IMG/VR virus record: IMGVR_UViG_3300008111_000075
Location: 1-30,372 of that record
Reading direction: 5' to 3' (one strand)
Length of the DNA: 30,372 nucleotides
DNA from: a virus
The notes under the pieces are model-generated. The model was not told where the DNA came from. It did not search any database and saw only the letters and a program-made list of their open reading frames with translations. Made by a program: the position numbers and the translations under genes. Below are positions 2,790 to 27,814 of this stretch, piece after piece. The stretch's first letter is position 1. The number at the start of each line of letters is the position of its first letter.

Positions 2790-3035
2790 ATGTTCAACTT
2801 CCTTAAAGAAAGTACAGATGTCAGCTCTATGCGAGTGACATTATTCCTTGGCACTCTTTGTGTGTGCCTTTTGTGCATTGGAATCTTGGTGTACACAATC
2901 ATTCACGCTGTAAAATGTTCTTCGCTTGACTGGTCTGGAATGTCAATATTCCTTACATCTATAGCAGCATTCACAGGAACTCTTTTATATGGCAAAGTAC
3001 AGCAGAAAAAAGTAGAAAGTAATGATGATAAATAA
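2790..3035 (+). CDS. Holin-like protein with two membrane segments
   Basis: An 81-residue protein with two hydrophobic stretches: about residues 15-37 (MRVTLFLGTLCVCLLCIGIL) and about 50-68 (GMSIFLTSIAAFTGTLLYG), ending in a charged tail (KVQQKKVESNDDK). Small size, two spans, charged C-terminus and position after lysin and a first membrane protein are what class II holins look like. I use the ATG at 2790, 1 nt after the previous stop. The 3' end overlaps the next gene by 14 nt. Which of the two membrane proteins triggers lysis cannot be decided; they may act as a pair. Confidence 0.6.
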   Translation: MFNFLKESTDVSSMRVTLFLGTLCVCLLCIGILVYTIIHAVKCSSLDWSGMSIFLTSIAAFTGTLLYGKVQQKKVESNDDK

Positions 3036-3768
3036 GACACTAAAGATATATGCATCAGGGAATATGGTAATTTTTACTGACCCTGACTACGGATTGATGC
3101 AAGCAGTACCAAAAGGGGCTATTCGTATCTATCCATTTCAATCTCCTAATGTCGGTTTTCAGTTCATAGACATCCGCACTATGAATATTATCGCTCAAAT
3201 TAGAGATTGGGGCGAAGTACAAGACTCAGGAGGTTCTGCTTGGGGAAGCGATTATCAAGATACCCTTGAAAAATTATGCTTGTTCTTTGATGTGACTACA
3301 GGAGCAGATACTTTGGCAGTTGTTTTGGCTTCAGGTAACAATGCAGGAGCATACGACATCGATATGAATGGCAATGACATTCTGAATGTCGGAAGCATCA
3401 CAGGACTAACCTATAAACAAGTAATTCAACTCGCAGTTAGCGATGAGACTACAGCACTAACTACAGGCACAAGCAAGATAATATTCAGAATGCCTTTCGC
3501 TTTTACCCTCACAGCAGTTCGTGCGAGCTTAGGTGTAGCACAGACAAGTGGTAGTATTTTTACTGTAGATGTCAATCAATCAGGTTCATCTATCCTGGGC
3601 ACAAAACTGACTATTGATAACACCGAGAAGACATCAGTAACAGCAGCTACTCCTGCTACCATAGTAACTTCAAGTCTTACAGATGATGCTGAGATTACCA
3701 TCGATATAGACCAGGTAGGGGATGGAACAGCCAAGGGATTAAAAGTTACTTTGATAGGCACAATATAA
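3022..3768 (+). CDS. Phage fibre protein with duplicated C-terminal domain
   Basis: A 248-residue protein. The N-terminal part (about 1-95: LKIYASGNMVIFTDPDYG, IRIYPFQSPNVGFQFIDI) looks like an attachment domain and has no counterpart in the window. Residues about 95-130 (AYDIDMNGNDILNVGSITGL) resemble the short trimerising repeat that precedes many fibre heads. The last 114 residues are the same domain as in the fibre protein at the left edge, beginning IQLAVSDETT and ending GLKVTLIGTI. The two therefore share a terminal module on different stems. It is the last gene of the operon and is followed at once by a terminator. A head-fibre role is possible. Confidence 0.65.
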   Translation: MMINKTLKIYASGNMVIFTDPDYGLMQAVPKGAIRIYPFQSPNVGFQFIDIRTMNIIAQIRDWGEVQDSGGSAWGSDYQDTLEKLCLFFDVTTGADTLAVVLASGNNAGAYDIDMNGNDILNVGSITGLTYKQVIQLAVSDETTALTTGTSKIIFRMPFAFTLTAVRASLGVAQTSGSIFTVDVNQSGSSILGTKLTIDNTEKTSVTAATPATIVTSSLTDDAEITIDIDQVGDGTAKGLKVTLIGTI

Positions 3769-3772
3769 AAAA

Positions 3773-3804
3773 AGAGCATCCGAGTGAGATGCTCTAATTT
3801 TTTT
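3773..3804. terminator. Bidirectional intrinsic terminator between convergent operons
   Basis: Stem AGAGCATC (3773-3780), 7-nt loop, GATGCTCT (3788-3795), followed by a T tract to 3804; the left side is an A tract, so it also reads as a terminator on the minus strand. It lies 4 nt after the fibre gene stop and touches the stop codon of the small minus-strand gene, so it closes both operons. Confidence 0.9.
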
Positions 3805-3886
3805 ACCACTTCCTAAGAAATTCTTCTAAAAGAATTACAAGAAGCATAAAAAAGAATCCAATAAAACAAATAATCACTATAGCCAT
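3803..3886 (-). CDS. Very small membrane protein (27 aa) downstream of ssb
   Basis: A 27-codon frame reading MAIVIICFIGFFFMLLVILL then EEFLRKW. It is almost entirely one hydrophobic helix with a charged end, as in other phage micro-membrane proteins. Its ATG overlaps the ssb stop (TAATG) and its stop lies in the T tract of the terminator, so it fills the space exactly, which is why I accept such a short frame. Function unknown; it could act on the host membrane. Chance is the alternative, because the DNA is AT-rich and codes easily for hydrophobic residues. Confidence 0.5.
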   Translation of the reverse strand: MAIVIICFIGFFFMLLVILLEEFLRKW

Positions 3887-4380
3887 TAGAACGGTAGATC
3901 GTCTTCTTCTTCACCGGCAGGAACTTCAGCATTCAAGATTGCAAGTTCTTCTGTAGTTAGGTTAAACTTTTCTTTTATCTGCGAAATTTTTAATTCTCCT
4001 TTTCTTACTTTTACTTTCATCGCTACCATTTGCGCTCCTGTAGGACTTGGTAAGTTATTCTGAACTTCATCCTGTTCGACTATCTTTTCTCCCTTAGAAT
4101 TGATTTTACGCACATAAGAAGCAATAATATCGGTATAGTATTTACCTTCGTGTTCTCTATAGGTGATTTTGCCTTCAAGATAGCACAAATCTCCTTTGTC
4201 AGCTTTAAACTCTTTAAAGATAGTGCAGCGATGCCATTCGGTTTTATCCTGCCATTCTCCATTTTTATCCTTATAACTTTCTGATGTTGCTAAGGATATG
4301 TTTGTGAGCTTTTCTCCGCTCTTTGTATCCTTTACATCAATGTTGCCGATACGACCTATCAGCGATACTTTGTTTACCAT
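3886..4380 (-). CDS. ssb: Single-stranded DNA-binding protein
   Basis: A 164-residue SSB. Residues 1-105 form the OB fold (VNKVSLIGRIGNIDVKD at the start, WHRCTIFKEFKADKGDLCYL and EGKITYREHEGKYYTDIIAS in the strands), and the C-terminus EEEDDLPF is the acidic tip that recruits replication and repair proteins. It would coat single-stranded DNA at the phage fork together with the helicase encoded upstream. Unusually, the usual Gly/Gln/Pro-rich linker is replaced by a helical, charged segment (about 115-152, including KISQIKEKFNLTTEELAILN). It follows a 41-codon gene by 1 nt. Confidence 0.95.
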   Translation of the reverse strand: MVNKVSLIGRIGNIDVKDTKSGEKLTNISLATSESYKDKNGEWQDKTEWHRCTIFKEFKADKGDLCYLEGKITYREHEGKYYTDIIASYVRKINSKGEKIVEQDEVQNNLPSPTGAQMVAMKVKVRKGELKISQIKEKFNLTTEELAILNAEVPAGEEEDDLPF

Positions 4381-4381
4381 T

Positions 4382-4507
4382 TCAATTGTTTTTAGGTTCG
4401 TTATACTTATACTTATTTCTTCGCTTTGGTTTTGGGGAATATGGTCCCATTCCGTCAGTCATCAGCAACAGGCCAAGACCTGTGCTGAGACAAAAGATTA
4501 TTATCAT
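4382..4507 (-). CDS. Small basic protein (41 aa) upstream of ssb
   Basis: A 41-residue frame starting MIIIFCLSTGLGLLLMTDGM and ending in the basic stretch PKPKRRNKYKYNEPKNN. The first half is hydrophobic enough for a signal anchor or short membrane segment, and the second half is strongly positive. The ATG overlaps the stop of the 105-residue gene (TAATG) and the stop is 1 nt from the ssb start, so it fills the gap exactly. Function unknown. The positional fit is the main support; no homologue comes to mind. Confidence 0.55.
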   Translation of the reverse strand: MIIIFCLSTGLGLLLMTDGMGPYSPKPKRRNKYKYNEPKNN

Positions 4508-4824
4508 TAAAACCATACTGAATCCTCCTCATCAGACTCATAAGCCTCCATTAAAGTTTCAGAAAATAGGGTTTCAAGTTCATATTTGCTACGTTCAAAC
4601 AAGATAGCAGCTTCTTCGATTGTGACCGATTTATTATAGTCAGTAATGAAGATGTCATCGAGTTCAAAATATGCTCCGTAATCGGGTTCTATTTGACATC
4701 CGTAGGAGTCTCTTGAGCCTCTTTCTTCTTCGACAAATGTTCCTGTCAATCTTACATAAACTTCGTTTGTAGGGAAGTTATCGCATTCCATATAAATGCC
4801 TGTGCTAAATGTGTTGTTGTTCAT
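4507..4824 (-). CDS. Acidic hypothetical protein, first gene of the ssb operon
   Basis: A 105-residue, strongly acidic protein (end: EAYESDEEDSVWF) with no recognised domain. The centre (YFELDDIFITDYNKSVTIEE) suggests a small alpha/beta fold. It is the first gene behind a well-formed Bacteroidota promoter (4855-4885), with AACTACCAA 3 nt before the ATG, and leads a short operon with the 41-residue protein, ssb and the 27-residue membrane protein. The similar net charge to SSB's tail and its position suggest a DNA-metabolism accessory or host-takeover protein, but this is a guess. Confidence 0.6.
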   Translation of the reverse strand: MNNNTFSTGIYMECDNFPTNEVYVRLTGTFVEEERGSRDSYGCQIEPDYGAYFELDDIFITDYNKSVTIEEAAILFERSKYELETLFSETLMEAYESDEEDSVWF

Positions 4825-4827
4825 AAC

Positions 4828-4836
4828 TTGGTAGTT
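4828..4836 (-). promoter_or_regulatory. AACTACCAA start-site motif
   Basis: Reads TTAAAACTACCAAGTT and then ATG on the minus strand. The same sequence, including GTT-ATG, precedes the gene starting at 8859. It is one of several copies tied to early gene starts; it does not resemble a Shine-Dalgarno sequence. Confidence 0.6.
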
Positions 4837-4854
4837 TTAATAATTAACGATGCA

Positions 4855-4885
4855 CAAAGATAATAATATTTTATTATACTTCAAA
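4855..4885 (-). promoter_or_regulatory. Bacteroidota-type promoter with palindromic operator (site a)
   Basis: On the minus strand TTTG (4885-4882), a 19-nt spacer, then TATCTTTG (4862-4855), an exact match to the Bacteroidota primary sigma consensus. The spacer contains ATAATATTATTATT-type sequence that forms an 18-bp near-palindrome at 4860-4877 (17 of 18 positions of ATAATAAAATTTTATTAT), touching the -7 box. A repressor bound there would block polymerase. It serves the operon ending with ssb. Confidence 0.8.
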
Positions 4886-4888
4886 TAA

Positions 4889-6616
4889 TCACAGCACATT
4901 TTTTAAATTTATTTGCACACATCTACCGATAAGACCTGGAGCAAATCTTGTTGTGCCTCTTTTCGATGCTCCTTTATGCCTTAGAAGTACAGTTGAATAG
5001 CTTATTGCCCAAGGCGTTCGACTGAGAATCATTTTTACCCAAGTAGATGTATTCAGAATTAACAGATACTTTTCTTTGTTTTCTTCTACAACTCTCAATC
5101 CTAATCTCTGAAGCCTCTCATCAGCTGCCGATTGCTTAATTTTTGCTTGTGGCTCATATTCCGAAGCATATTCAACAAGCTCTCCGACTGTTACAGTACC
5201 AATAAAATCTCCTTCGATGCGAGTTTCATTCTGCAAAATTGTCTGTAGGCATCTTTCTTCATCCGTTAAGTCTGCTGCTTGATTCAATAGTCCTTTCATT
5301 TTTAGAAGTTCGACAGATTCTTCACAAGCTTGCTCAAATGTAACTACTTCATCGTTCCAGGTGTGCCACCATCCACCAAGTAATGCACCGAACTGGTCAC
5401 CTATTGCCCGATCATTCACAGCTTCTGTAATCACTTCAGTAAATATTGCAATGGACTGCAAGATGTTCGGCACAAGATTTACCATCCTCGCTATGAATCT
5501 CACGCCAAAATCCTTGTTAATGACTTCTTTTTTTCTCTTGTTTAATGCATTGAACTTCTCAGAGTCTTGATGCTTTGCAAGTTCAAATACTGTGAATCTT
5601 CTCTTGTCGCTATCATTTACCAACTGAGGATTTATACTGACAAACAAAAAACAACTGCGGACAAAATAGTCCGTTGCTTTTCCATCCTTTCCACCTTTCG
5701 GAATGGCAGGAGATTTTTCAGAGCTTCCTGCCCGGGCAAGTGCAATAACTTCCTGCATTCGCTTTGCGGCATTTTCATCGTTACCTTCAGACTCATCAAT
5801 CGTGACTGGCATAGCATCAGAATTGAGTTTCTGCCTTATCGCTGCCTCTGTCGCTGCTGTTCCTTGAGCATTGATTGAAAACTCTCCTAAGACCTGATGA
5901 ATAATCTGCTCAAGTACATAGGTCTTTCCGTTTCCTCTTGGGCCTGTAATCCAAATGTGAGGCCTCCAAGATAATGCTCCACAAATTGGTGCTATCGCTA
6001 ACCATCCTGCCAACATCTTACCATCTGCATCTGTCTGCCAATTAAGTCCTGACAAGATTTTTGTAAGGAGTGAACATTCGATTCTATCCATTGATGACTC
6101 AATCGGAATTCGGATGTTCTTTCGCATCTCATAGGTGAACTCCGTTTCAATGCTGCCAAGGTTATATCGAATCTTCTCGCTGAGTAATTGCATTCCACTA
6201 TGGAAAATAATTCTGTCGGATTCTTTCCAGGCTCCTCTGCCTCGGATATTCTGCAAATCAAAATATCCTACTTTGTTACAGCATTGAACTAAGAAGTTGG
6301 AGATATATTCTGACTTGGAAAAAACTTCGCGATCCCAAAACTCTAATGGTGCCAAAGCAGTAACGTGCTGCTTGGTGAACTTTCCTGTAGTGAATGCCAA
6401 TATAGCATTGCTTACTTTGGAGTAGAAGTAGAACCTTTGCGCTCTCGCTTCAGTATCCCATCCTAATGGCTTAAAATATCCACCGATGAAGCCTCTCGAA
6501 TCAGTTGTTATAGAGTTCTCCGGTGCTGCCTCCGCTTTTGGCTTTTTGGCTCTTTTCTTTACTGGTGGTAATACATCTTCGGGATTGTTATCCCATTTAA
6601 TTGGTAGTTTTGTCAT
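4889..6616 (-). CDS. AAA+/SF3-like replicative helicase (primase-helicase type)
   Basis: A 575-residue ATPase. After a basic start (VKKRAKKPKAEAAPENS) and a region of about 190 residues without a clear motif, it shows Walker A GPRGNGKT (225-232), Walker B VTIDESEG (271-278), a sensor-1 like FLFVSINP (about 323-330) and DKRR (337-340), a likely arginine finger. This order fits the helicase half of phage primase-helicases (D5/SF3-like) that unwind the fork. The catalytic motifs of a primase are not evident, so priming may come from elsewhere. The C-terminal part (HKGASKRGTTRFAPGL) may bind DNA. It is the last gene of the long minus operon and overlaps the preceding gene by 4 nt. Its first codons carry the AACTACCAA motif. 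Confidence 0.75.
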   Translation of the reverse strand: MTKLPIKWDNNPEDVLPPVKKRAKKPKAEAAPENSITTDSRGFIGGYFKPLGWDTEARAQRFYFYSKVSNAILAFTTGKFTKQHVTALAPLEFWDREVFSKSEYISNFLVQCCNKVGYFDLQNIRGRGAWKESDRIIFHSGMQLLSEKIRYNLGSIETEFTYEMRKNIRIPIESSMDRIECSLLTKILSGLNWQTDADGKMLAGWLAIAPICGALSWRPHIWITGPRGNGKTYVLEQIIHQVLGEFSINAQGTAATEAAIRQKLNSDAMPVTIDESEGNDENAAKRMQEVIALARAGSSEKSPAIPKGGKDGKATDYFVRSCFLFVSINPQLVNDSDKRRFTVFELAKHQDSEKFNALNKRKKEVINKDFGVRFIARMVNLVPNILQSIAIFTEVITEAVNDRAIGDQFGALLGGWWHTWNDEVVTFEQACEESVELLKMKGLLNQAADLTDEERCLQTILQNETRIEGDFIGTVTVGELVEYASEYEPQAKIKQSAADERLQRLGLRVVEENKEKYLLILNTSTWVKMILSRTPWAISYSTVLLRHKGASKRGTTRFAPGLIGRCVQINLKNVL

Positions 6617-7771: not shown

Positions 7772-7998
7772 TTTATTAGCTTTTTTTCGACTGGTATGAA
7801 TCCCGTGCCGGTACCTTCATTACCCATCATTTTTAAGAAATCGATTTCTACTTTTGCAGAGTGAATTATTGTATCTGCAAGTTTTGATATTGCCTTTGCT
7901 TTTGCTGTCTCTTTCTCGACATCGGCATCATCATCCATTAGCTTTTCAATCTGTTCGAAAAGCAAATTCCGAAGGTCTTCAATTTTATTTCGTGCCAT
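7768..7998 (-). CDS. Conserved small helical phage protein
   Basis: A 76-residue protein starting MARNKIEDLRNLLFEQIEKL with a central AKAISKLADTIIHSAKVEID helix. I recognise this pattern (N-terminal IEDLRN-LF-Q-E-L, then KA-A-sK-ad-II-sAK-E-dFlK) from many phage replication regions, where it is annotated only as hypothetical. It has no membrane segment and probably forms a helical bundle. It overlaps the HNH-like gene by 14 nt and the transglycosylase gene by 4 nt. Confidence 0.65.
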   Translation of the reverse strand: MARNKIEDLRNLLFEQIEKLMDDDADVEKETAKAKAISKLADTIIHSAKVEIDFLKMMGNEGTGTGFIPVEKKLIK

Positions 7999-8596
7999 TT
8001 TTTCTGATAGTTTTTTTAAGTTTCGTTAATGCCACAATTGTTTTCTTTAGTTCTTCAGGGAATCGATGTACAGTATTAAGCTTAAGATTTTGACTTTTAG
8101 TAATCAACATCAGATTGTTAATGTCATACTTATTCTTTCTTGGGTCTTTTACTCTTACTACACATCCTTTTGGAACTTTTCCGTAGGCTTCTTCCCAAAT
8201 CAGAATCTCTTTTCGAATCCATTCGTTATCTGCTACCTTGACCATTAAGAACATATCTTTTCCGTCTATCCTGGTATCGCCAACTTGTCTTGTATTGTGT
8301 GGCTTGTGTCCTTTTTTGAAGCTTGTTTTGTTGGCTCCAATGTACCCTTTTACTCCTTTGTTCCAAGGAACGTTTCCAGGTTGAAACTTTGTACCTTTAT
8401 TAAGCTTCCTGAGCCTGATTGCTTCCTTATCGAGAAGCATCTTCATATATTCTTCTGACCTTTTTAATCCTAATAGATTTGCTTGTGAGTAAATAGAACT
8501 ACTGCTTCTTTCCAAGATTCTGCAAATCTCCTTTATGTCAGTATCAGAGTAGAGGGCACTAAGTACCCTCCGCTCATCATCTGTCCACTTTCTCAT
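7985..8596 (-). CDS. HNH-endonuclease-like protein, catalytic His apparently missing
   Basis: A 203-residue protein. Residues 1-45 (RKWTDDERRVLSALYSD, KEICRILERSSSSIYSQAN) form a Myb-like/HTH DNA-binding domain. Then come two copies of an F-x-x-G-x-x-P-x-N motif (FQPGNVPWNKG at 71-81, FKKGHKPHN at 93-101), as in NUMOD-type modules of phage HNH enzymes. The HNH core is WEEAYGKVPKGCVVRVKDP with KYDINNLMLIT. Where HNH enzymes have His-x-D-G, this one has V-K-D-P, and the nearby Gly-His is Gly-Cys, so nuclease activity is doubtful. Homing-type or DNA-binding regulator are both possible. It overlaps its neighbours by 4 and 14 nt. Confidence 0.7.
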   Translation of the reverse strand: MRKWTDDERRVLSALYSDTDIKEICRILERSSSSIYSQANLLGLKRSEEYMKMLLDKEAIRLRKLNKGTKFQPGNVPWNKGVKGYIGANKTSFKKGHKPHNTRQVGDTRIDGKDMFLMVKVADNEWIRKEILIWEEAYGKVPKGCVVRVKDPRKNKYDINNLMLITKSQNLKLNTVHRFPEELKKTIVALTKLKKTIRKNGTK

Positions 8597-8859
8597 ATAT
8601 ATTCCTTATGATAACCCCAAAGAATATCTCTTACTTCGCAATAGTATTTGTAAACAGGTTCTATAGAAGTGCTGAATACATCTTGAGTAAGTAAAACTGA
8701 AATAATATCATCAACTGCTGCGTTTGCGTGATAAATTGCTATCATCTTCTGATAGTTTGTAGCATTGTCGAAATCTGCTACTACTGAATATTTCCCAATA
8801 AATTGTTTTGCCTTTTCTTCAGGCGATAATCTGTGAAATGAACTTTGTAATTCTGACAT
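8593..8859 (-). CDS. Conserved small phage protein, first gene of the helicase operon
   Basis: An 88-residue helical protein. The centre (YHANAAVDDIISVLL) and end (VYKYYCEVRDILWGY) match a small family common in phage early regions, in which a helix of the form A-x-x-AVDEII is followed by YW-x-x-V-x-x-EI. Function unknown. It is the first gene behind the promoter at 8899-8929, with AACTACCAAGTT directly before its ATG, and overlaps the HNH-like gene by 4 nt. Confidence 0.65.
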   Translation of the reverse strand: MSELQSSFHRLSPEEKAKQFIGKYSVVADFDNATNYQKMIAIYHANAAVDDIISVLLTQDVFSTSIEPVYKYYCEVRDILWGYHKEYI

Positions 8860-8862
8860 AAC

Positions 8863-8871
8863 TTGGTAGTT
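8863..8871 (-). promoter_or_regulatory. AACTACCAA start-site motif
   Basis: Minus strand TTAAAACTACCAAGTT followed by ATG, identical over 19 nt to the copy at the gene starting at 4824 although the proteins are unrelated. This makes a nucleotide-level signal more likely than chance. Confidence 0.6.
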
Positions 8872-8898: not shown

Positions 8899-8929
8899 CA
8901 AAAGTATAATAAAATTTTATTATCTCAAT
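8899..8929 (-). promoter_or_regulatory. Bacteroidota-type promoter with perfect 18-bp palindrome (site b)
   Basis: Minus strand -7 box TACTTTTG (8906-8899) fits TANNTTTG; 19 nt upstream lies ATTG (8929-8926), one off TTTG. Between them ATAATAAAATTTTATTAT (8906-8923) is a perfect palindrome that touches the -7 box. It drives the seven-gene operon from 8859 to 4889. The -33 end overlaps the stop codon of the SF2 helicase gene. Confidence 0.75.
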
Positions 8930-10484
8930 ACTTTTTGTAACTTTTTTTGAAATTATTTTTATTTTCTATTCTCTTCCATCCATAGAATGAGTTCCAGGCA
9001 CTATCGATTGCAGTCTTTAAATCTTGATGTGATGTAGATACAGCGTTTATTTTGTACTTTGAATTTATTTTATCTATAGTATTATTATCTTTCATCACTC
9101 TTGATTCAAAAATATGCTTCACCCAAAAATCTTTGTACTTCATTCGCTCTTTCAATTGCCATAATTCCTCCAGGGTAACGCATTCATATCTTTCTTTAGG
9201 CTTGGCTCCTTGCTGCATATTTAAAAAATCATCCAAGGACCTATCATCTTTTACAGCAACTGCATTCTCAATCTTCTTTTGTTCTTTTTGTTTTACCTCT
9301 GGTATCAATCCGCACTCAGGACAGCACTCTTCAGTCTTTTCAAAAACAGCATAACAGCCTTGGCAAACATTATAGTTCTCTTCGACTTCGTTCTTTTTTT
9401 TCTTTTTCTTCTTGATGCCATTCAAATCCCATTCACGAGGTGTGAGCGGATGTAAATGTCTTACCATATTATTAACGTGATCTAAAATGATGCATTTGTC
9501 TTTCCCGGCACAAGGTCTCAATCCCCTACCAACTATCTGAAGATATAGACTGAGTGATGCCGTTGGTCTGAGCATACCTACTACAGCGACAGCAGGAATA
9601 TCTGTTCCCTCGCTGATTAGGTTACAAAACGTAACCACCTGGATAGTTCCATCCGCAAGTCCTTTGAATATCCTATCAACTTCTTCATCTTTTTGCTCTC
9701 CGTGAACTGCCTCAGATGTGTATCCTGCATCTCTGAAAGTCTTGGCCATTTCCTGTGCGTGGAAGATTGTGGAACAGGAATAGATTGCAGGCGCACCATC
9801 AGCAAGTCTTCTATATTCCTTGACTATGTCTCCGCAAATTGCAGCATCTGTCATTACATCAGATATTTCGCCCAAATCATATTCCCCGAAATTATTCTGC
9901 TTCAAGTTGTCCAAAGCTTCAATTTTCTTGAACATATAATATGCCGGCATAACAAGATTACCCATCTGAATCAATTCTGCAATTGCAGGCCCGAGAACCA
10001 TCCGCTCAAACATATCTCCGAGACCTTTTCCATCCAATCTCCAAGGTGTTGCAGTAACACCAAGCATAAATACATCGGAGTAGTATTCCATTATCGCTTT
10101 CCAGGTTCCTGCGGATGCGTGGTGAGCTTCATCTATTATTATAAGGTCAGGTGTCGGGACTTCATCCAATCTGTTCTTTAATGTCTGCACACTACAAACC
10201 TGTGCTTGGTATTGGTAGTTTTTAGGATGTCCGCCTGCAATGATTCCGTGTTGCAAGTTATATTTATTGCATCGCTCAGAGATTTGTCTCACAAGGTTCT
10301 TCTTATGCACCAGGAAGAAAACTTTCTTGTTTCTGCTCATCGCCTGCTCTGCGATATGAATGAAAGTTTCAGTCTTGCCCCCACCTGTGGGAAGTACAAA
10401 CAAAACTCTTTTGCTTCCTTGCTTAAAGTGACCTCGAATAGAATCTACTGCATCGGATTGGTATGGTCTAAGAGTTACGCTCAT
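8925..10484 (-). CDS. SF2 DEAH-box DNA helicase with C-terminal zinc ribbon
   Basis: A 519-residue helicase counted from the ATG at 10484. Motifs: LRPYQSDAV (Q-like, 5-13), LPTGGGKT Walker A (31-38), DEAH (118-121), TATP (144-147), and QIVGRGLRP motif VI (316-324), so both RecA-like domains are complete, as in UvsW/RecQ-like phage SF2 enzymes that remodel forks and branch points. Cys374, 377, 387/388 and 391 form a zinc-ribbon-like finger, preceded by eight lysines. An upstream TTG at 10511 is possible but sits deep in the HTH gene; the ATG still overlaps that gene by 17 nt, so the two are probably coupled. Confidence 0.85.
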   Translation of the reverse strand: MSVTLRPYQSDAVDSIRGHFKQGSKRVLFVLPTGGGKTETFIHIAEQAMSRNKKVFFLVHKKNLVRQISERCNKYNLQHGIIAGGHPKNYQYQAQVCSVQTLKNRLDEVPTPDLIIIDEAHHASAGTWKAIMEYYSDVFMLGVTATPWRLDGKGLGDMFERMVLGPAIAELIQMGNLVMPAYYMFKKIEALDNLKQNNFGEYDLGEISDVMTDAAICGDIVKEYRRLADGAPAIYSCSTIFHAQEMAKTFRDAGYTSEAVHGEQKDEEVDRIFKGLADGTIQVVTFCNLISEGTDIPAVAVVGMLRPTASLSLYLQIVGRGLRPCAGKDKCIILDHVNNMVRHLHPLTPREWDLNGIKKKKKKKNEVEENYNVCQGCYAVFEKTEECCPECGLIPEVKQKEQKKIENAVAVKDDRSLDDFLNMQQGAKPKERYECVTLEELWQLKERMKYKDFWVKHIFESRVMKDNNTIDKINSKYKINAVSTSHQDLKTAIDSAWNSFYGWKRIENKNNFKKSYKKY

Positions 10485-10656
10485 TTTCAGCTTTTTTAAG
10501 TTCCGTTTCAATTCTTTCTAAATAATCGAATGTTATAGGCTCATTTCGTTTCCAATAGTCTAATGTCTGTCTATGTATTCCTGTTCGTTTACATAGTTCT
10601 GTAATAGTAATACCAATCTTGTCGGCTCGTTCTTTGATTCTTTGGTAAGTCTTCAT
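10468..10656 (-). CDS. Small Cro/CI-type HTH regulator
   Basis: A 62-residue protein: KERADKIGITITELCKRTGI then HRQTLDYWKRNEP is a helix-turn-helix of the Cro/CI (HTH_3) type, and the C-terminus is a short charged helix. It has no separate oligomerisation domain, so it would bind as a simple dimer. I use the ATG at 10656; an upstream TTG (10689) would add 11 residues without homology. The gene lies next to a divergent promoter region holding an 18-bp palindrome, which is the classical position of an autoregulating phage repressor or Cro. It is co-transcribed with the SF2 helicase. Confidence 0.75.
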   Translation of the reverse strand: MKTYQRIKERADKIGITITELCKRTGIHRQTLDYWKRNEPITFDYLERIETELKKAENERNS

Positions 10657-10694: not shown

Positions 10695-10722
10695 CAAAAG
10701 TAATAAAATTTTATTATCTTTG
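10695..10722. promoter_or_regulatory. Divergent early promoters sharing one palindrome (site c)
   Basis: The palindrome GTAATAAAATTTTATTAT (10700-10717, 17 of 18 positions) is flanked on the right by TATCTTTG (10715-10722) for plus-strand transcription of the RecE-like gene, and on the left by TACTTTTG read on the minus strand (10702-10695) for the HTH gene. Both -7 boxes overlap the palindrome ends, so one bound dimer could control both directions. The -33 elements are poor, which may mean activation or weak basal expression. Confidence 0.7.
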
Positions 10723-10750: not shown

Positions 10751-10759
10751 AACTACCAA
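10751..10759 (+). promoter_or_regulatory. AACTACCAA start-site motif
   Basis: The last A of the motif is the first base of the start codon of the RecE-like gene, so the motif directly abuts initiation. Confidence 0.55.
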
Positions 10760-11514
10760 TGACAAATCAAGAGTATCACTCAAAAACAGATTTTCTAAGC
10801 AAGACTTTGCTTGATCAGATTCGCAAATCTCCTGCTCACTTCCAGGCATATATTAATGCCGAAAAAAAAGAAGCTACTTCAGCTATGAACTTCGGAAGCT
10901 TAGTTCATTCTGTACTATTCGAACAGGATAACTTCGCAATTATGCCAACCTGTGACAGAAGAACTAAGGAAGGTAAACTACTTTATGAGGCATTCTTAGA
11001 AAATGCTCAAGGTGTTGAACTAATCGTTACAGAAGAACAGCACGAACAAGCTTTGAAAATCGCTCAAGCAGTTCTACAGCATCCAAAAGCATCGGCACTA
11101 CTTCAAGATGGTAAAGCAGAGCTTCCGGTATTCGGACAAATCGAAGGCATTAACTTTAAATGCAAACCCGATTTTCGCAATACTAAGTTCAATGTATTGC
11201 TTGACCTTAAAACAACTACAGACAGTTCTCCTTCAGAGTTTGCAAAATCTGTATGGAATTATCGTTATCACGTTCAAGCAGCATTATATATGGACTTGAC
11301 TAAAGCAGATAGGTTCTTCTTTATTGCTGTAGAAAAAGAATCTCCGTTCAATGTTGAGGTGTACGAACTTGACCAGGATGCAATACAGAAAGGTAGAGAA
11401 GATTACCTGGCAGATATTGCAACTTACAAAAAATGTGTCGAAACAAACAACTGGCACGGATACACAGAAGACAAGTCAATCAATATTCTTTCACTCCCTA
11501 AATGGGTTAAATAA
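10759..11514 (+). CDS. RecE-like exonuclease (PD-(D/E)xK superfamily)
   Basis: A 251-residue protein with the layout of the RecE C-terminal nuclease domain. SAMNFGSLVHSVLFE contains the conserved GxxxH (His50), then AELPVFGQIEG (Glu121), KCKPDFR (Asp138), LLDLKTT (Asp149, Lys151) and the YHVQAALYMD helix (about 170-179) with the conserved Gln. Such enzymes degrade the 5' strand of double-stranded DNA ends to give 3' tails for annealing. The next gene is a probable annealing protein, so the two form a two-component recombination pair. It is the first gene behind the divergent promoter at 10715-10722. Confidence 0.8.
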   Translation: MTNQEYHSKTDFLSKTLLDQIRKSPAHFQAYINAEKKEATSAMNFGSLVHSVLFEQDNFAIMPTCDRRTKEGKLLYEAFLENAQGVELIVTEEQHEQALKIAQAVLQHPKASALLQDGKAELPVFGQIEGINFKCKPDFRNTKFNVLLDLKTTTDSSPSEFAKSVWNYRYHVQAALYMDLTKADRFFFIAVEKESPFNVEVYELDQDAIQKGREDYLADIATYKKCVETNNWHGYTEDKSINILSLPKWVK

Positions 11515-11520
11515 CTACCA
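11513..11520 (+). promoter_or_regulatory. AACTACCA start-site motif inside the recombination operon
   Basis: Lies 2 nt before the ATG at 11523 and overlaps the stop codon of the preceding gene. There is no promoter here, so the motif is not just a promoter companion; a second full AACTACCAA follows at 11539-11547 within the first codons. Confidence 0.5.
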
Positions 11521-11522
11521 CA

Positions 11523-12050
11523 ATGTCAAACATCACAAAACTACCAACATTCCAGGAACTAATCACAGATTCTGAAGACAGCCTCAAGCAAAATGCCTTA
11601 ACTGTACTGCTAAATCAAGACCCTCCGAAGGCTTGGTTACAAGAACATCCAATGATAAAAGGCTATCGTTACATCTCAATTGAGAAAATTGAGTACCTTT
11701 TAACACGAATTTTCACAAAATGGTGGGTAGAAGTGAAAAACGTTCAAGTTGTCGCAAATAGCGTTGTAGTCACGGTTAGGCTCTTTGTAACAAATCCGAT
11801 AAATGATGAAATAATGTTTCAAGATGGTATCGGAGCAGCACCAATACAAACAGACAAAGGAGCAGGTGCAACTGATTGGAATGCAGTAAAGACCGATGGT
11901 GTACAGAAAGCAGCACCCGCAGCCGAGACATACGCAATAAAAGACGCAGCGGAGAAATTTGGCAAGATTTTCGGCAGAGATGTGAGCAGAAAAACAACGA
12001 TGGACTATAATCCGTTACTGAAAAAAAGCGATTTTAACGACCAAGTTTAG
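11523..12050 (+). CDS. Probable Rad52-like single-strand annealing protein
   Basis: A 175-residue protein. RYISIEKIEYLLTRIFTKWW at about 49-68 and the strand pattern NVQVVANSVVVTVRLFV are followed by QDGIGAAPIQ, then AETYAIKDAAEKFGKIFGRD. This is the Rad52/Sak arrangement of an early helix with aromatic residues, a beta hairpin, an invariant-like G-x-G turn, and a helix with A-x-x-DA-x-x-x-FG. Together with the RecE-like gene 8 nt upstream it would pair complementary strands during recombination-dependent replication. RecT/Erf type is the alternative. It is the last gene before a terminator. Confidence 0.65.
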   Translation: MSNITKLPTFQELITDSEDSLKQNALTVLLNQDPPKAWLQEHPMIKGYRYISIEKIEYLLTRIFTKWWVEVKNVQVVANSVVVTVRLFVTNPINDEIMFQDGIGAAPIQTDKGAGATDWNAVKTDGVQKAAPAAETYAIKDAAEKFGKIFGRDVSRKTTMDYNPLLKKSDFNDQV

Positions 12051-12069
12051 TGTGTAATAGTTTGTTTCT

Positions 12070-12101
12070 GAGAGCCTTATTTTTGAGGCTCTCTTTTTTT
12101 T
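12070..12101 (+). terminator. Intrinsic terminator of the recombination operon
   Basis: Stem GAGAGCCT (12070-12077), 8-nt loop, AGGCTCTC (12086-12093), then eight T. It lies 20 nt after the annealing-protein stop. Confidence 0.9.
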
Positions 12102-12106
12102 GCCCT

Positions 12107-12381
12107 GTAACAGCCTTTTTTTTTGTTACGCTTTTCGTTTCTATTAACTTATTGATTCTCAATACTTGTAACAATGTAACGATTGTAACGGAAAACAATA
12201 TATATATATATAGAGATTCTATTATGTATATATATGTGTATGTATATTCGTGTTACATATGTTACATAGTTATAATTATATTATTATTAAGTAGTTAGGT
12301 GTAACAAAATTGTGTTACTGCTATGTTACGTTTGTTACAGTTAATTTTAGTAAAAAAAAGACATATTTTTGCACTTGTTAC
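12107..12381. repeat. Twelve GTAAC/GTTAC repeats: candidate replication origin
   Basis: The 446-nt stretch 12102-12547 has no credible gene. Within 275 bp the pentamer GTAAC or its complement GTTAC starts at 12107, 12125, 12168, 12176, 12185, 12252, 12261, 12301, 12314, 12325, 12334 and 12377, nearly always preceded by T. Three direct copies at 12168-12189 are spaced 8-9 bp, three inverted ones at 12314-12338 are spaced 9-11 bp, and a TA-only tract (about 12198-12242) lies between the clusters. Iterated short sites around an easily melted tract, next to replication genes, is what iteron origins look like. A regulatory array is the alternative. Confidence 0.55.
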
Positions 12382-12436
12382 GTCATAGGGTTTTCATATA
12401 GGGGGAAGGTTATTTGGTAGTTCCCTTCCTCCTTTT
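12364..12436 (+). ncRNA. Candidate small RNA or structured late leader
   Basis: TATTTTTG (12364-12371) fits a -7 box. Beyond it GGGGGAAGG (12401-12409) pairs with CCTTCCTCC (12424-12432; eight Watson-Crick pairs and one G-U), leaving a 14-nt loop TTATTTGGTAGTTC, then TTTTC. The loop contains TTGGTAGTT, the exact complement of the AACTACCAA motif at early gene starts. An RNA of about 60 nt would present this as an accessible seed. No good -33 element is seen and the T tract is short, so it may instead be the leader of the terminase operon. Confidence 0.4.
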
Positions 12437-12547
12437 CAAAAATCTTCGATTTAAGGCACTTTTTTTTGTTTTTGATAGTAGAGTACCACTTTAGAAATAA
12501 AATTGAATGTAGGTACTAAAGAATGATAAATAAACATATTTTAACTT

Positions 12548-24655: not shown

Positions 24656-24914
24656 AAAGGAATTTGCCCGCAGATTGGCAGAGCGAATAGAACAGATGCA
24701 AGACATCACAGCTGAGTCGCTCTCTGAGATGCTTATCAGTTCGGGGATTCTCTCTGAGCGCAGAGTAGTACAGTATTGTGCTATCTGTGAGTTTTACGAT
24801 TCGATTGGTCAAAAAACAAAAACGCAGACAATTAAGGAACTGTCTGCGAAGTATAGTGTATCTGAAAGAGTTCTTATTGAGCTAACAGGTCGTGAACGTC
24901 GTTTCTCTGTTTAA
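24633..24914 (+). CDS. Small HTH-like protein at the end of the tail operon
   Basis: A 93-residue protein (from the ATG at 24633; 24624 would add three residues). It is helical, and the end TIKELSAKYSVSERVLIEL looks like a helix-turn-helix, preceded by YCAICEFYDSIGQKTKTQT. It may bind DNA. It overlaps the CxxC gene and, unusually, its last 41 nt overlap the end of the convergent sigma factor gene. No terminator is visible between the two operons. Confidence 0.55.
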   Translation: MVSTESIKKEFARRLAERIEQMQDITAESLSEMLISSGILSERRVVQYCAICEFYDSIGQKTKTQTIKELSAKYSVSERVLIELTGRERRFSV

Positions 24915-25635
24915 GCTTGTGTAATGCTTGTTGATGCAGCTGTCTGATTCTTTGTTGTGAGTATTCAAGTTTATCTGCAATCTGCCGAAAGCTTAAAGGA
25001 AAGTCATCCAGGTATAAACTTTGAATGATAAAATATTCTTCTTTAGTAAGATTTTTAAGGATTGATTTTATCCTCTTGCTAAAACTTAGATTCTCGATTA
25101 CTCTTGCAGTATCTTCATCGGATGCAAACTGCTTTTCAATTTCATCTTCATCTTCTGAATTATTTTCAATGCTCAAAACTTTTGGGTAATGATGCATATC
25201 TCTTAGAAAATGTTTTGGAAAGATGTCGAGTTCTTTTAGTTCTGCTTCATCGTACTTTTCTTTAAGTTCAACATAGGTTCTAATGTAACGATAATTTTTC
25301 GATGGAATACGGATTGTACTTTGCGTATCGTAAATGTATTGAAGTATTCCTTGTCGGATATAGAACCTTGCAAAAGAAATAAACTTAAATCCTCTTGTAG
25401 GGTCAAACAAATCAGCTGCTTTTATCAATCCGATCATCCCTTCAGAAATTAGGTCTTTAATATCAGTTGCGCTATTATTGATTTTTTTGGCTTCCGATAC
25501 TACAAACAGCATATTGTGTTTGACCAGTTGTTCAGGTGTTGCTGTTACTTCTGCTTCAGGTTTAAGTGGTGGGTATCTTGCGGCCTCTCTTAAAAAGTGC
25601 TGTAGCGATTTATTGGTAAATCTCGTTTCGCTCAT
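24874..25635 (-). CDS. Phage-encoded sigma-70 family factor
   Basis: A 253-residue sigma factor. Region 2 spans about 38-110: VKHNMLFVVSEAKKI, DLISEGMIGLIKAADLFDPT, then GFKFISFARFYIRQGILQYI, the polymerase-binding and -10 recognition part. Region 4 spans about 193-245: LTKEEYFIIQSLYL and SFRQIADKLEYSQQRIRQLH, an HTH that reads the -35 side. An acidic linker (NNSEDEDEIEKQF) separates them, and region 1.1 is absent. It resembles the host primary sigma and may redirect host RNA polymerase to late phage promoters. It overlaps the glucosaminidase gene by 4 nt and is the last gene of its operon. Confidence 0.85.
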   Translation of the reverse strand: MSETRFTNKSLQHFLREAARYPPLKPEAEVTATPEQLVKHNMLFVVSEAKKINNSATDIKDLISEGMIGLIKAADLFDPTRGFKFISFARFYIRQGILQYIYDTQSTIRIPSKNYRYIRTYVELKEKYDEAELKELDIFPKHFLRDMHHYPKVLSIENNSEDEDEIEKQFASDEDTARVIENLSFSKRIKSILKNLTKEEYFIIQSLYLDDFPLSFRQIADKLEYSQQRIRQLHQQALHKLKQRNDVHDLLAQ

Positions 25636-26156
25636 TGGTCGTACTTGTAGAGTTTATAAGTCTCGATGACTTTGATTAGTGACTGAGCATAGTGCGGAGC
25701 AGTTGCATAACCAGCTTTTTTTAGTCCATACGCCCAACTTTTATAATCCGTGCGCTTTAGTTTACGCAAGTGTGAATATCTTTTCATACAGAGCAATTTT
25801 GAATGGTCACGATATGAACGCCAAGCTGATTTATAAACTTGAAATTTGTCGTTTGGTATGTCATCACGGTAAACTGCATATTTGCCAACGCCACGATATT
25901 TCATTCCGAAGTGATTGTTATGCTTTCGGCTTAGTTCCGATTTACCTGCATTGCTTTCTAAAATGCCCTGAGCGAGCTTTATACTTACTGGTATATTAAA
26001 TAGTTCAGCTTCTTTTTTTGCGGTCTTTAAAAAGCGTTTAATGTACTTGTCAACGTGTGTCGGTATTTTTGTTTGTTGCTTCTGATTTGCAGGTGTTGCA
26101 AGTGGATAGGTAGCACTCGCAAAAAGTAAGGCTGTTAAAAAAAGTAGTGTTTTCAT
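25632..26156 (-). CDS. Secreted GH73-type glucosaminidase (peptidoglycan hydrolase)
   Basis: A 174-residue protein. Residues 1-23 (MKTLLFLTALLFASATYPLA) are a signal peptide. The catalytic domain follows: IKLAQGILESNAGKSELS with Glu67 as likely acid, then NNHFGMKYRG, YKSAWRSYRDHSKLL and a C-terminal YGLKKAGYATAPHYAQSLI. This is the FlgJ/AcmA/GH73 pattern (AQ-x-x-LES-x-x-G-x-S, N-x-F-G-x-K, A-T-D/A-x-x-Y). The family cuts the bond after N-acetylglucosamine in the glycan chain. Being transcribed with the sigma factor and not with lysin and holin, it may act at a different time. Confidence 0.85.
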   Translation of the reverse strand: MKTLLFLTALLFASATYPLATPANQKQQTKIPTHVDKYIKRFLKTAKKEAELFNIPVSIKLAQGILESNAGKSELSRKHNNHFGMKYRGVGKYAVYRDDIPNDKFQVYKSAWRSYRDHSKLLCMKRYSHLRKLKRTDYKSWAYGLKKAGYATAPHYAQSLIKVIETYKLYKYDQ

Positions 26157-27202: not shown

Positions 27203-27211
27203 TTGGTAGTT
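27203..27211 (-). promoter_or_regulatory. AACTACCAA start-site motif
   Basis: Minus strand TTTTAAAACTACCAACA and then ATG of the SPOR-like gene. There is no promoter in the 28 nt between this gene and the upstream one, so it acts, if at all, on the mRNA. Confidence 0.55.
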
Positions 27212-27228: not shown

Positions 27229-27690
27229 TTATTTAAGTGATTCGATTTTATTGATTGCCCAATTGATACCTTCATCGCCTCCCCAGGCATCCCACATCAG
27301 TCCTCCGCATCCTTGATCATAGCTTACATCTTTATTCTCCTTGTGTCTTATGAATGCTGCCATACGTTTTACGGTGGTGAGGCTGATAGGTTCTTTCTTT
27401 GCTAACTGATTTGCTCTCATCCATCCGACAAGAGTTCCGCAGTCATTCTTGTTTCCGTTTTCTTCTTTCCACTTTAATGCACGCTTAGCATTGTCAGTTG
27501 CAGCTTGAGGATAATCTGTGAACGTTTCTTCGTTTTTCGGATTGGTTGCCTTGTCTTTGTTGCTAAACTTCATAGAACAGATTGCATATCTTTGGTCTTG
27601 TGGATATTCAGAGACCATATTATCATCTGACATACAGCGTTCGATAAACTTGTCGAATGATTCTCCTGGATTTGGTGTAGGGATAGGCAT
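27229..27690 (-). CDS. Conserved phage head-region module protein
   Basis: A 153-residue protein. The start MPIPTPNPGESFDKFIERCM, then DQRYAICSMKF, is a motif common beside or fused to phage portal, protease or capsid proteins. The second half (ALKWKEENGNKNDCGTLVGW, ANQLAKKEPISLTTVKRMAA, GCGGLMWDAWGGDEGINWAI) is another domain typical of the same setting. The cysteines at positions about 19 and 38, 84 and 127 could bind metal. It stands alone on the opposite strand from the protease and capsid genes, behind its own promoter with palindrome. The role is unknown; a head assembly part is the usual guess. Confidence 0.65.
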   Translation of the reverse strand: MPIPTPNPGESFDKFIERCMSDDNMVSEYPQDQRYAICSMKFSNKDKATNPKNEETFTDYPQAATDNAKRALKWKEENGNKNDCGTLVGWMRANQLAKKEPISLTTVKRMAAFIRHKENKDVSYDQGCGGLMWDAWGGDEGINWAINKIESLK

Positions 27691-27729: not shown

Positions 27730-27760
27730 CAAAGTTAATAATAATATTTTATTATAAAAG
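27730..27760 (-). promoter_or_regulatory. Promoter with palindromic operator (site d)
   Basis: Minus strand -7 box TAACTTTG (27737-27730) fits TANNTTTG. Directly upstream ATAATAATATTTTATTAT (27738-27755) is the same near-palindrome as at site a, base for base. No good TTTG is found at 19-21 nt. It would drive the minus operon from 27690 to the sigma factor. Confidence 0.65.
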
Positions 27761-27772
27761 AATAAAACAACA

Positions 27773-27814
27773 TTTTTTTGCACTAAAATAATATTTTTTT
27801 CTTGCTATAATTGT
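27773..27814 (+). promoter_or_regulatory. Possible late promoter of the head operon
   Basis: TTTTTGCACT (27775-27784) followed after about 20 nt by GCTATAATTG (27804-27813), 20 nt before the protease ATG. TATAATTG is one base off TANNTTTG, but the spacing is long for the host consensus. The same TTTTTGCACT occurs before the terminase operon at 12366-12375. Confidence 0.35.

Follow-up and report, generated by a model that had tools for sequence, protein, structure and literature searches.

A conserved TAATA-N6-TATTA palindrome as the probable operator of a Cro/CI-type autorepressor at four early promoter regions of an uncultured phage

The Cro proteins of phages 434 and lambda are small, single-domain helix-turn-helix (HTH) proteins whose operators lie over their own and other early promoters, an arrangement from which late damping of these promoters is expected. 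C-protein controllers such as C.Esp1396I, which have the same fold, both activate and repress. The non-canonical LexA regulons of Bacteroidetes also join a CI-type HTH to palindromic sites and to genes of the DNA-repair type (PMC8565304). The Bacteroidota -7 consensus is TANNTTTG, AT-rich spacers are common in Bacteroidota promoters, and the promoters of F. johnsoniae have a weak -33 element and AT-rich motifs near -18 and -28 in the spacer (PMC6847099). Transcription control in Bacteroidota phages has been little described so far, and our literature searches returned nothing direct on an operator of the kind described below in such phages. We analyzed a whole IMG/VR record of 30,372 bases (the window) and assign a probability of about 0.76 to the reading that the A/T-only palindrome TAATA-N6-TATTA serves as operator for an HTH autorepressor of the Cro/CI type that the phage itself encodes and that would shut four early promoter regions.

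The original prediction placed the 18-mer ATAATAAAATTTTATTAT at four promoters, and we recovered the same matches: an exact copy at 8906-8923 and copies with one mismatch each at 4860-4877, 10700-10717 and 27738-27755. These were the only places in the whole record with two mismatches or fewer; when three mismatches were allowed, the window held 5 matches as compared to a shuffle mean of 0.18 and a shuffle maximum of 2. The copies at 4860 and 27738 have a T at the centre and are thus slightly asymmetric. The conserved element was found to be the 16-bp TAATA-N6-TATTA with an A/T centre rather than the entire 18-mer. This core occurred only 4 times in the whole record, while the reversed control pattern did not occur at all. 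Under our strictest null, a shuffle of the AT-rich intergenic DNA alone, the expectation was 0.03 copies, and a count of 4 did not occur in any of 1000 runs. The possibility that the palindrome occurs at an equal rate in non-promoter DNA was not borne out, since the 30 kb held no copy of the core outside the four promoter sites.

A TAnnTTTG -7 box follows each copy of the palindrome, which occupies the spacer 5' of it (Table 1). Five such boxes were found at the four sites, all of them matching TANNTTTG and placed immediately downstream of the spacer, as at sigma-ABfr promoters. The earlier claims that every palindrome overlaps or touches a TANNTTTG box, and that the copy at 10700 sits near the HTH gene between two divergent boxes, therefore both stood. 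Since the five boxes match the Bacteroidota -7 consensus, the host likely belongs to the Bacteroidota; a sigma-70 scan gave consensus promoters no more often than chance, in line with what is expected for this phylum. A -33 TTG at 19 nt was present at some of the promoters only, and in the p88 promoter the 19-nt spacer between the TTG and the -7 box is filled by operator 2. The end of the operator lies anywhere from 2 bases inside the -7 box to 2 bases before it (-2 to +2). Given how common AT-rich spacers are in the promoters of this phylum, some of the A/T richness of the operators is not operator-specific. One could go further and regard the palindrome as a mere promoter element, an AT-rich spacer that aids RNA polymerase and is no regulator's operator, in the manner of the weak -33 of F. 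johnsoniae and its AT-rich motifs at about -18 and -28 (PMC6847099). We consider this highly improbable because the sites have dyad symmetry, stand at a variable distance from the box and are specific to this phage group. The sites keep inverted arms without variation even where the promoter is one-way, and the shift of -2 to +2 would not be tolerable for a promoter element. Moreover, two candidate late promoters (see below) lack the palindrome, and other phages almost never carry it, with 4 copies of TAATA-N6-TATTA in 561 kb of loci of 70 distant p153 homologues. Given the variable distance, occlusion by a bound protein fits better than a fixed promoter element.

Table 1. Coordinates of the operators, -7 boxes, genes and hairpins in the window
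Feature	Position	Strand	Remarks
Operator 1 (TAATAAAATTTTATTA)	10701..10716	.	Between divergent HTH-helicase (-) and exonuclease-Rad52 (+) promoters
-7 box TACTTTTG	10695..10702	-	HTH-helicase promoter
-7 box TATCTTTG	10715..10722	+	Exonuclease-Rad52 promoter
Operator 2 (perfect palindrome)	8907..8922	.	Promoter of p88-HNH-...-primase operon
-7 box TACTTTTG	8899..8906	-	p88 operon; -33-like TTG 8926-8928
Operator 3 (TAATAATATTTTATTA)	4861..4876	.	Promoter of orf105-ssb operon
-7 box TATCTTTG	4855..4862	-	orf105-ssb operon; -33-like TTG 4882-4884, spacer 19 nt
Operator 4 (TAATAATATTTTATTA)	27739..27754	.	Promoter of p153-...-glucosaminidase-sigma operon
-7 box TAACTTTG	27730..27737	-	p153-sigma operon
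HTH regulator	10468..10656	-	62 residues, Cro/CI type; proposed binder of operators 1-4
DEAD/ResIII-type helicase	8925..10490	-	In HTH operon
RecE-like exonuclease (DUF3799/PDDEXK)	10759..11514	+	Under operator 1
Rad52-family single-strand annealing protein	11523..12050	+	
Terminator-like hairpin	12070..12093	+	Closes exonuclease-Rad52 operon
p88	8593..8859	-	First gene of primase operon; matches no PHROG
HNH endonuclease	7985..8596	-	D5-like N-terminal part
Replicative primase/helicase	4889..6616	-	Last gene of p88 operon
orf105	4507..4824	-	First gene of ssb operon; conserved
Single-strand DNA-binding protein (ssb)	3886..4380	-	
Terminator-like hairpin	3773..3795	.	Both strands; end of leftward early block
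p153	27229..27690	-	First gene of fourth operon; function not assigned
Glucosaminidase (cell-wall hydrolase)	25632..26156	-	p153 operon
Phage RNA polymerase sigma factor	24874..25635	-	Last gene of p153 operon

The assignment of the sites to the ssb, recombination and sigma-factor operons held, and that of the helicase was refined: the site at 8906 drives p88, HNH, p76, p152, p114, p120 and primase, in this order, while the helicase is under the site at 10700. Downstream of operator 4 the order is p153, small genes, glucosaminidase and sigma factor. Several other repeated sequences were seen in the window. The motif AACTACCA had 9 copies against 0.76 expected, at places that include 4829-4836, 8864-8871, 10751-10758, 11513-11520 and 27204-27211; most copies lie directly 5' of start codons (orf105, p88, exonuclease, Rad52, p133) and others just within the start of a gene (primase, Rad52). 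This leader motif is kept in relatives and is possibly a translation-start or mRNA element. Of the 30 TGTTAC hexamers in the window, 10 lie in the 0.5-kb non-coding stretch 5' of terS (12051-12547), where they take either orientation and include pairs such as TGTTACATATGTTACA; the stretch is a candidate for the replication origin or for sites of a different regulator. The sequence ACATWTTTTTGCAC occurs exactly twice (12361-12374 and 27770-27783), upstream of the terS operon and of the Clp-protease/capsid operon, and is a candidate late promoter, perhaps one used by the phage sigma factor. In the tail/fibre region, two structural proteins have C-terminal parts (310-656 and ~3420-3768) that nearly copy each other (TTALTTGT...GDGTAKGLK), a domain duplication.

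We compared the window with about 20 relatives, all uncultured viruses of a group whose hosts are probably Bacteroidota. A pattern scan of viral contigs gave eleven that belong to this phage group, a set selected by the palindrome itself; the unbiased tests were queries with the HTH, primase, p153 and sigma proteins, which ignore the palindrome. An HTH alignment query found 13 orthologue contigs, to which L139, found via its primase, was added. The HTH gene always adjoined the divergent operator, and TAATA-N6-TATTA was present between the HTH and exonuclease genes in all 14 HTH-bearing relatives, including the 58%-identical members L133 and L134, whose site reads TAATATTTTTTTATTA. The primase query gave 18 contigs, and among those reaching the ssb promoter the operator was found in 14/14 that keep orf105; in L145 and L146, orf105 and its promoter were lost and the operator was lost too (0/2). 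With p153 and sigma as queries, 8 different close contigs were found; each has operator 4, the variant in L034 being TAATAAAAAAGTATTA. TAATA-N6-TATTA was not found upstream of distant p153 homologues (0/70). A helicase query of the viral contigs contributed little among the matches listed. Thus the proposed search for the palindrome at the same genes in related genomes, once run, came out in favor of the original prediction (14/14 at HTH/exonuclease, 14/14 at ssb and 8/8 at p153/sigma), and the claim that several operons are under one control was supported by conservation at orthologous promoters, by loss together with orf105 and by absence from the 70 distant p153 homologues.

Alignment of the four site classes indicated that the arms are invariant, the A/T centre is variable and the flanks diverge; at the p88 site, conservation was 1.00 in the arms versus 0.60-0.75 in the flanks. 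The longer relatives G004 and G007 had TAATA-N6-TATTA at the four expected sites only, and G010 had these four plus one extra copy 52 bp from operator 4. This second copy (TAATATTTTTCTATTA) lies on the protease-gene side at G010:4744-4759 and recurs in G014 (9776-9791), also 52 bp from operator 4. In L136, a close relative of the window, two operators lie 5' of orf105-ssb (3025-3040 and 3224-3239), and the centre of the first has diverged (TAATATCAATTTATTA). The pattern scan also returned contigs L003, L006-L013, L016-L019, L021, L025 and L026, which we treated as chance or unrelated hits. No window protein was found in them at E <= 1e-4, save a weak p152 match in L025, and inspection by eye of the ORFs adjoining the two sites of L010 revealed no HTH gene.

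The HTH protein matched the Pfam families HTH_26 (E=1.8e-7, 31.7 bits, cut-off 22) and HTH_3 (E=2.7e-6, 27.8 bits, cut-off 23). Its predicted structure had a mean pLDDT of 86.9 and four helices in a Cro/CI fold. Foldseek searches with the model gave SinR, 434 Cro, P22 c2 and C.Esp1396I as top matches, with a probability of 0.99-1.00 and a TM score of 0.65-0.73 for the first three; comparison with 434 Cro gave a VIA Z of 6.7. By profile comparison, SinR was the closest among true HTH regulators of known function. We rejected a MerR-type activator that binds the spacer, as the MerR match scored 21.2 bits (below the cut-off of 28.2) over 19 residues only and the fold is Cro/CI. The C-terminal oligomerisation or S24 peptidase domain of a CI-type immunity repressor was not present either, the protein having 62 residues and a single HTH domain.

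The L139 contig allowed us to relate the protein to the operator sequence. Judging from alignment within the Cro/CI family, Q30 would lie early in the recognition helix, in the part with which 434-type proteins touch bases. Q30 was invariant among the 13 aligned orthologues, in which K/R was the sole variation of the recognition-helix stretch GIH[KR]QTLD. In L139 the helix reads GIHRTTLDHW, that is, Q30 is replaced by T, and the centres of all three of its operators (TAATATAATTATATTA, TAATATAATTATATTA and TAATATTATTATATTA) are altered while the arms are not. Position 6 of the half-site was T in 6/6 L139 half-sites versus A in 73/78 elsewhere, T being already present in 5/78 half-sites of the Q30 phages; Fisher's test gave p = 1e-6. 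However, the sequences are related and hence not independent, and the contrast is to be counted as one event at three sites. When the HTH site of L139 was compared with that of L002, 3 of 6 centre bases and no arm bases differed, as did 0/30 upstream and 2/30 downstream flanking bases. Because L139 is nested within the clade of the window (support 100/100), the changes in protein and operator are derived and occurred on one branch. The L139 HTH protein carries further changes (Y/K34 to H), and a change of a different regulator on the same branch could also lie behind the operator shift. A query with the L139 HTH protein for a second T30 phage returned its own contig alone.

The original prediction named the HTH protein as the probable regulator, and three observations speak for it: the gene lies beside the divergent site, the protein has a Cro/CI fold, and the Q30T change goes with changed operators. 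From these sequence and model data, the 62-residue HTH protein is very probably the operator binder. The palindrome might instead be bound by another factor, such as a host SOS repressor (a non-canonical LexA), the HNH/D5-like protein or the sigma factor. Recombination and ssb genes, which are typical SOS targets, are indeed among the targets here, and in Bacteroidetes the SOS repressors bind palindromic sites through CI-type domains (PMC8565304). However, the published Bacteroidetes SOS sites (CTAA-N5-TTAG, GGA-N5-TCC and TTAC-AAATT-GTAA) have different arms and an odd spacer (PMC8565304), and because the known SOS sites differ in this way a host SOS repressor is unlikely. An SOS box or LexA regulon site was therefore rejected, all conserved sites being TAATA-N6-TATTA, unlike the published motifs; the targets, moreover, also include a cell-wall hydrolase and a sigma factor. 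As for the HNH protein, it is only 34% identical in L133/L146, yet the operator arms are constant. With the Q30T covariation favoring the HTH protein, we regard binding by any of these other factors as improbable.

In the mechanism that we propose, an HTH dimer would read the two TAATA half-sites, which are inverted and spaced by roughly one turn of the helix. As the operator lies just upstream of the -7 box or overlaps it, a bound dimer would exclude the host RNA polymerase, and the HTH protein would jointly lower the HTH-helicase, exonuclease-Rad52, p88-HNH-primase, orf105-ssb and p153-glucosaminidase-sigma operons. Since the HTH gene is the first in its own operon and under the same operator, the circuit would be negatively autoregulated, a single-input module. 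We infer repression as the sign of control from the position of the operators over the spacer and the -7 box. By analogy to Cro, an early burst would be followed by shut-down as the HTH protein builds up.

The chief doubt about this reading concerns the role of the bound HTH protein, which might activate, or might repress for the sake of lysogeny (immunity), instead of damping early genes. Proteins with the Cro/CI fold are able to activate, and the HTH model matches the fold of the dual-role C.Esp1396I. On the other hand, a dimer bound to operators that overlap or adjoin the -7 box should keep polymerase out. With regard to lysogeny, the records are incomplete and an integrase could be missing from them. 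Yet no tyrosine or serine integrase (PF00589, PF00239) was found in eight records, none of which is known to be complete, and queries of bacterial genomes with the HTH and primase proteins found no relative; in addition, a 62-residue protein is too small for a cleavable domain. We therefore consider such a role unlikely. A lytic life style is favored, as neither of the two main integrase families was found in the eight records and no relative in the bacterial genomes queried. The operator is defined and lies at four target promoter regions, the protein is small, and its Q30 and T30 forms occur naturally with matching operator variants. Small A/T-only operators that are so tightly placed may be of use in controlled Bacteroidota promoters.

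In ~90-kb phages that infect Aeromonas, Pseudomonas, Yersinia or Enterobacter (ST4, fHe-Yen8-01, Jeremy and phiT5282EW; L119-L122), an HTH gene again heads an operon with a helicase gene and faces away from a RecE-like exonuclease gene; the order HTH-helicase-ssb-primase divergent from exonuclease is conserved across phyla. Their HTH proteins, called 'SaPI-like transcriptional repressor' in some annotations, are 31-43% identical to that of the window. The ~90-kb phages differ in having another recognition helix and a far larger genome, and ST4 and Jeremy have an annotated integrase. TAATA-N6-TATTA was not found in their exonuclease/HTH intergenic region. A candidate motif, TATACTCAWWWWWRAG, was seen in this region in 3/4 of them and is weakly recurrent in the genomes; in ST4, ACTCATTTTTGAG occurs in the same region and also at a second place, flanked by the integrase gene and a tRNA-Lys gene. 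A joint reading, in which an integrase-less, obligately lytic clade carries an old HTH-helicase/RecE-like module, is possible but doubtful. If true, a single-domain Cro-like autorepressor alone would time the genome-wide shut-off of early operons including that of the phage sigma factor, and the HTH-helicase/divergent RecE-like module would be old and common to phages of Bacteroidota and Gammaproteobacteria, each with a co-evolved operator.

SinR and C.Esp1396I are the closest folds to the HTH protein by structure, but they are bacterial or R-M regulators with different operators, and we claim no sequence-level orthology. The LexA regulon of Bacteroidetes differs in its S24 peptidase domain, its site sequences, its N5 spacing and its host genes (PMC8565304). 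The regulon proposed here resembles that of 434 and lambda Cro in that the regulator is small and single-domain, with 434 Cro among its top structure matches, and in that a conserved operator lies over its own promoter and three further promoter regions. In contrast to Cro, the window phage has one operator per promoter region instead of three in tandem, its four separate promoter regions are spread genome-wide and include that of the sigma-factor operon, no CI partner was recognised in it, and its TAATA half-sites are set in a Bacteroidota-type promoter. The Cro-like autorepressor circuit is of a well-known type.
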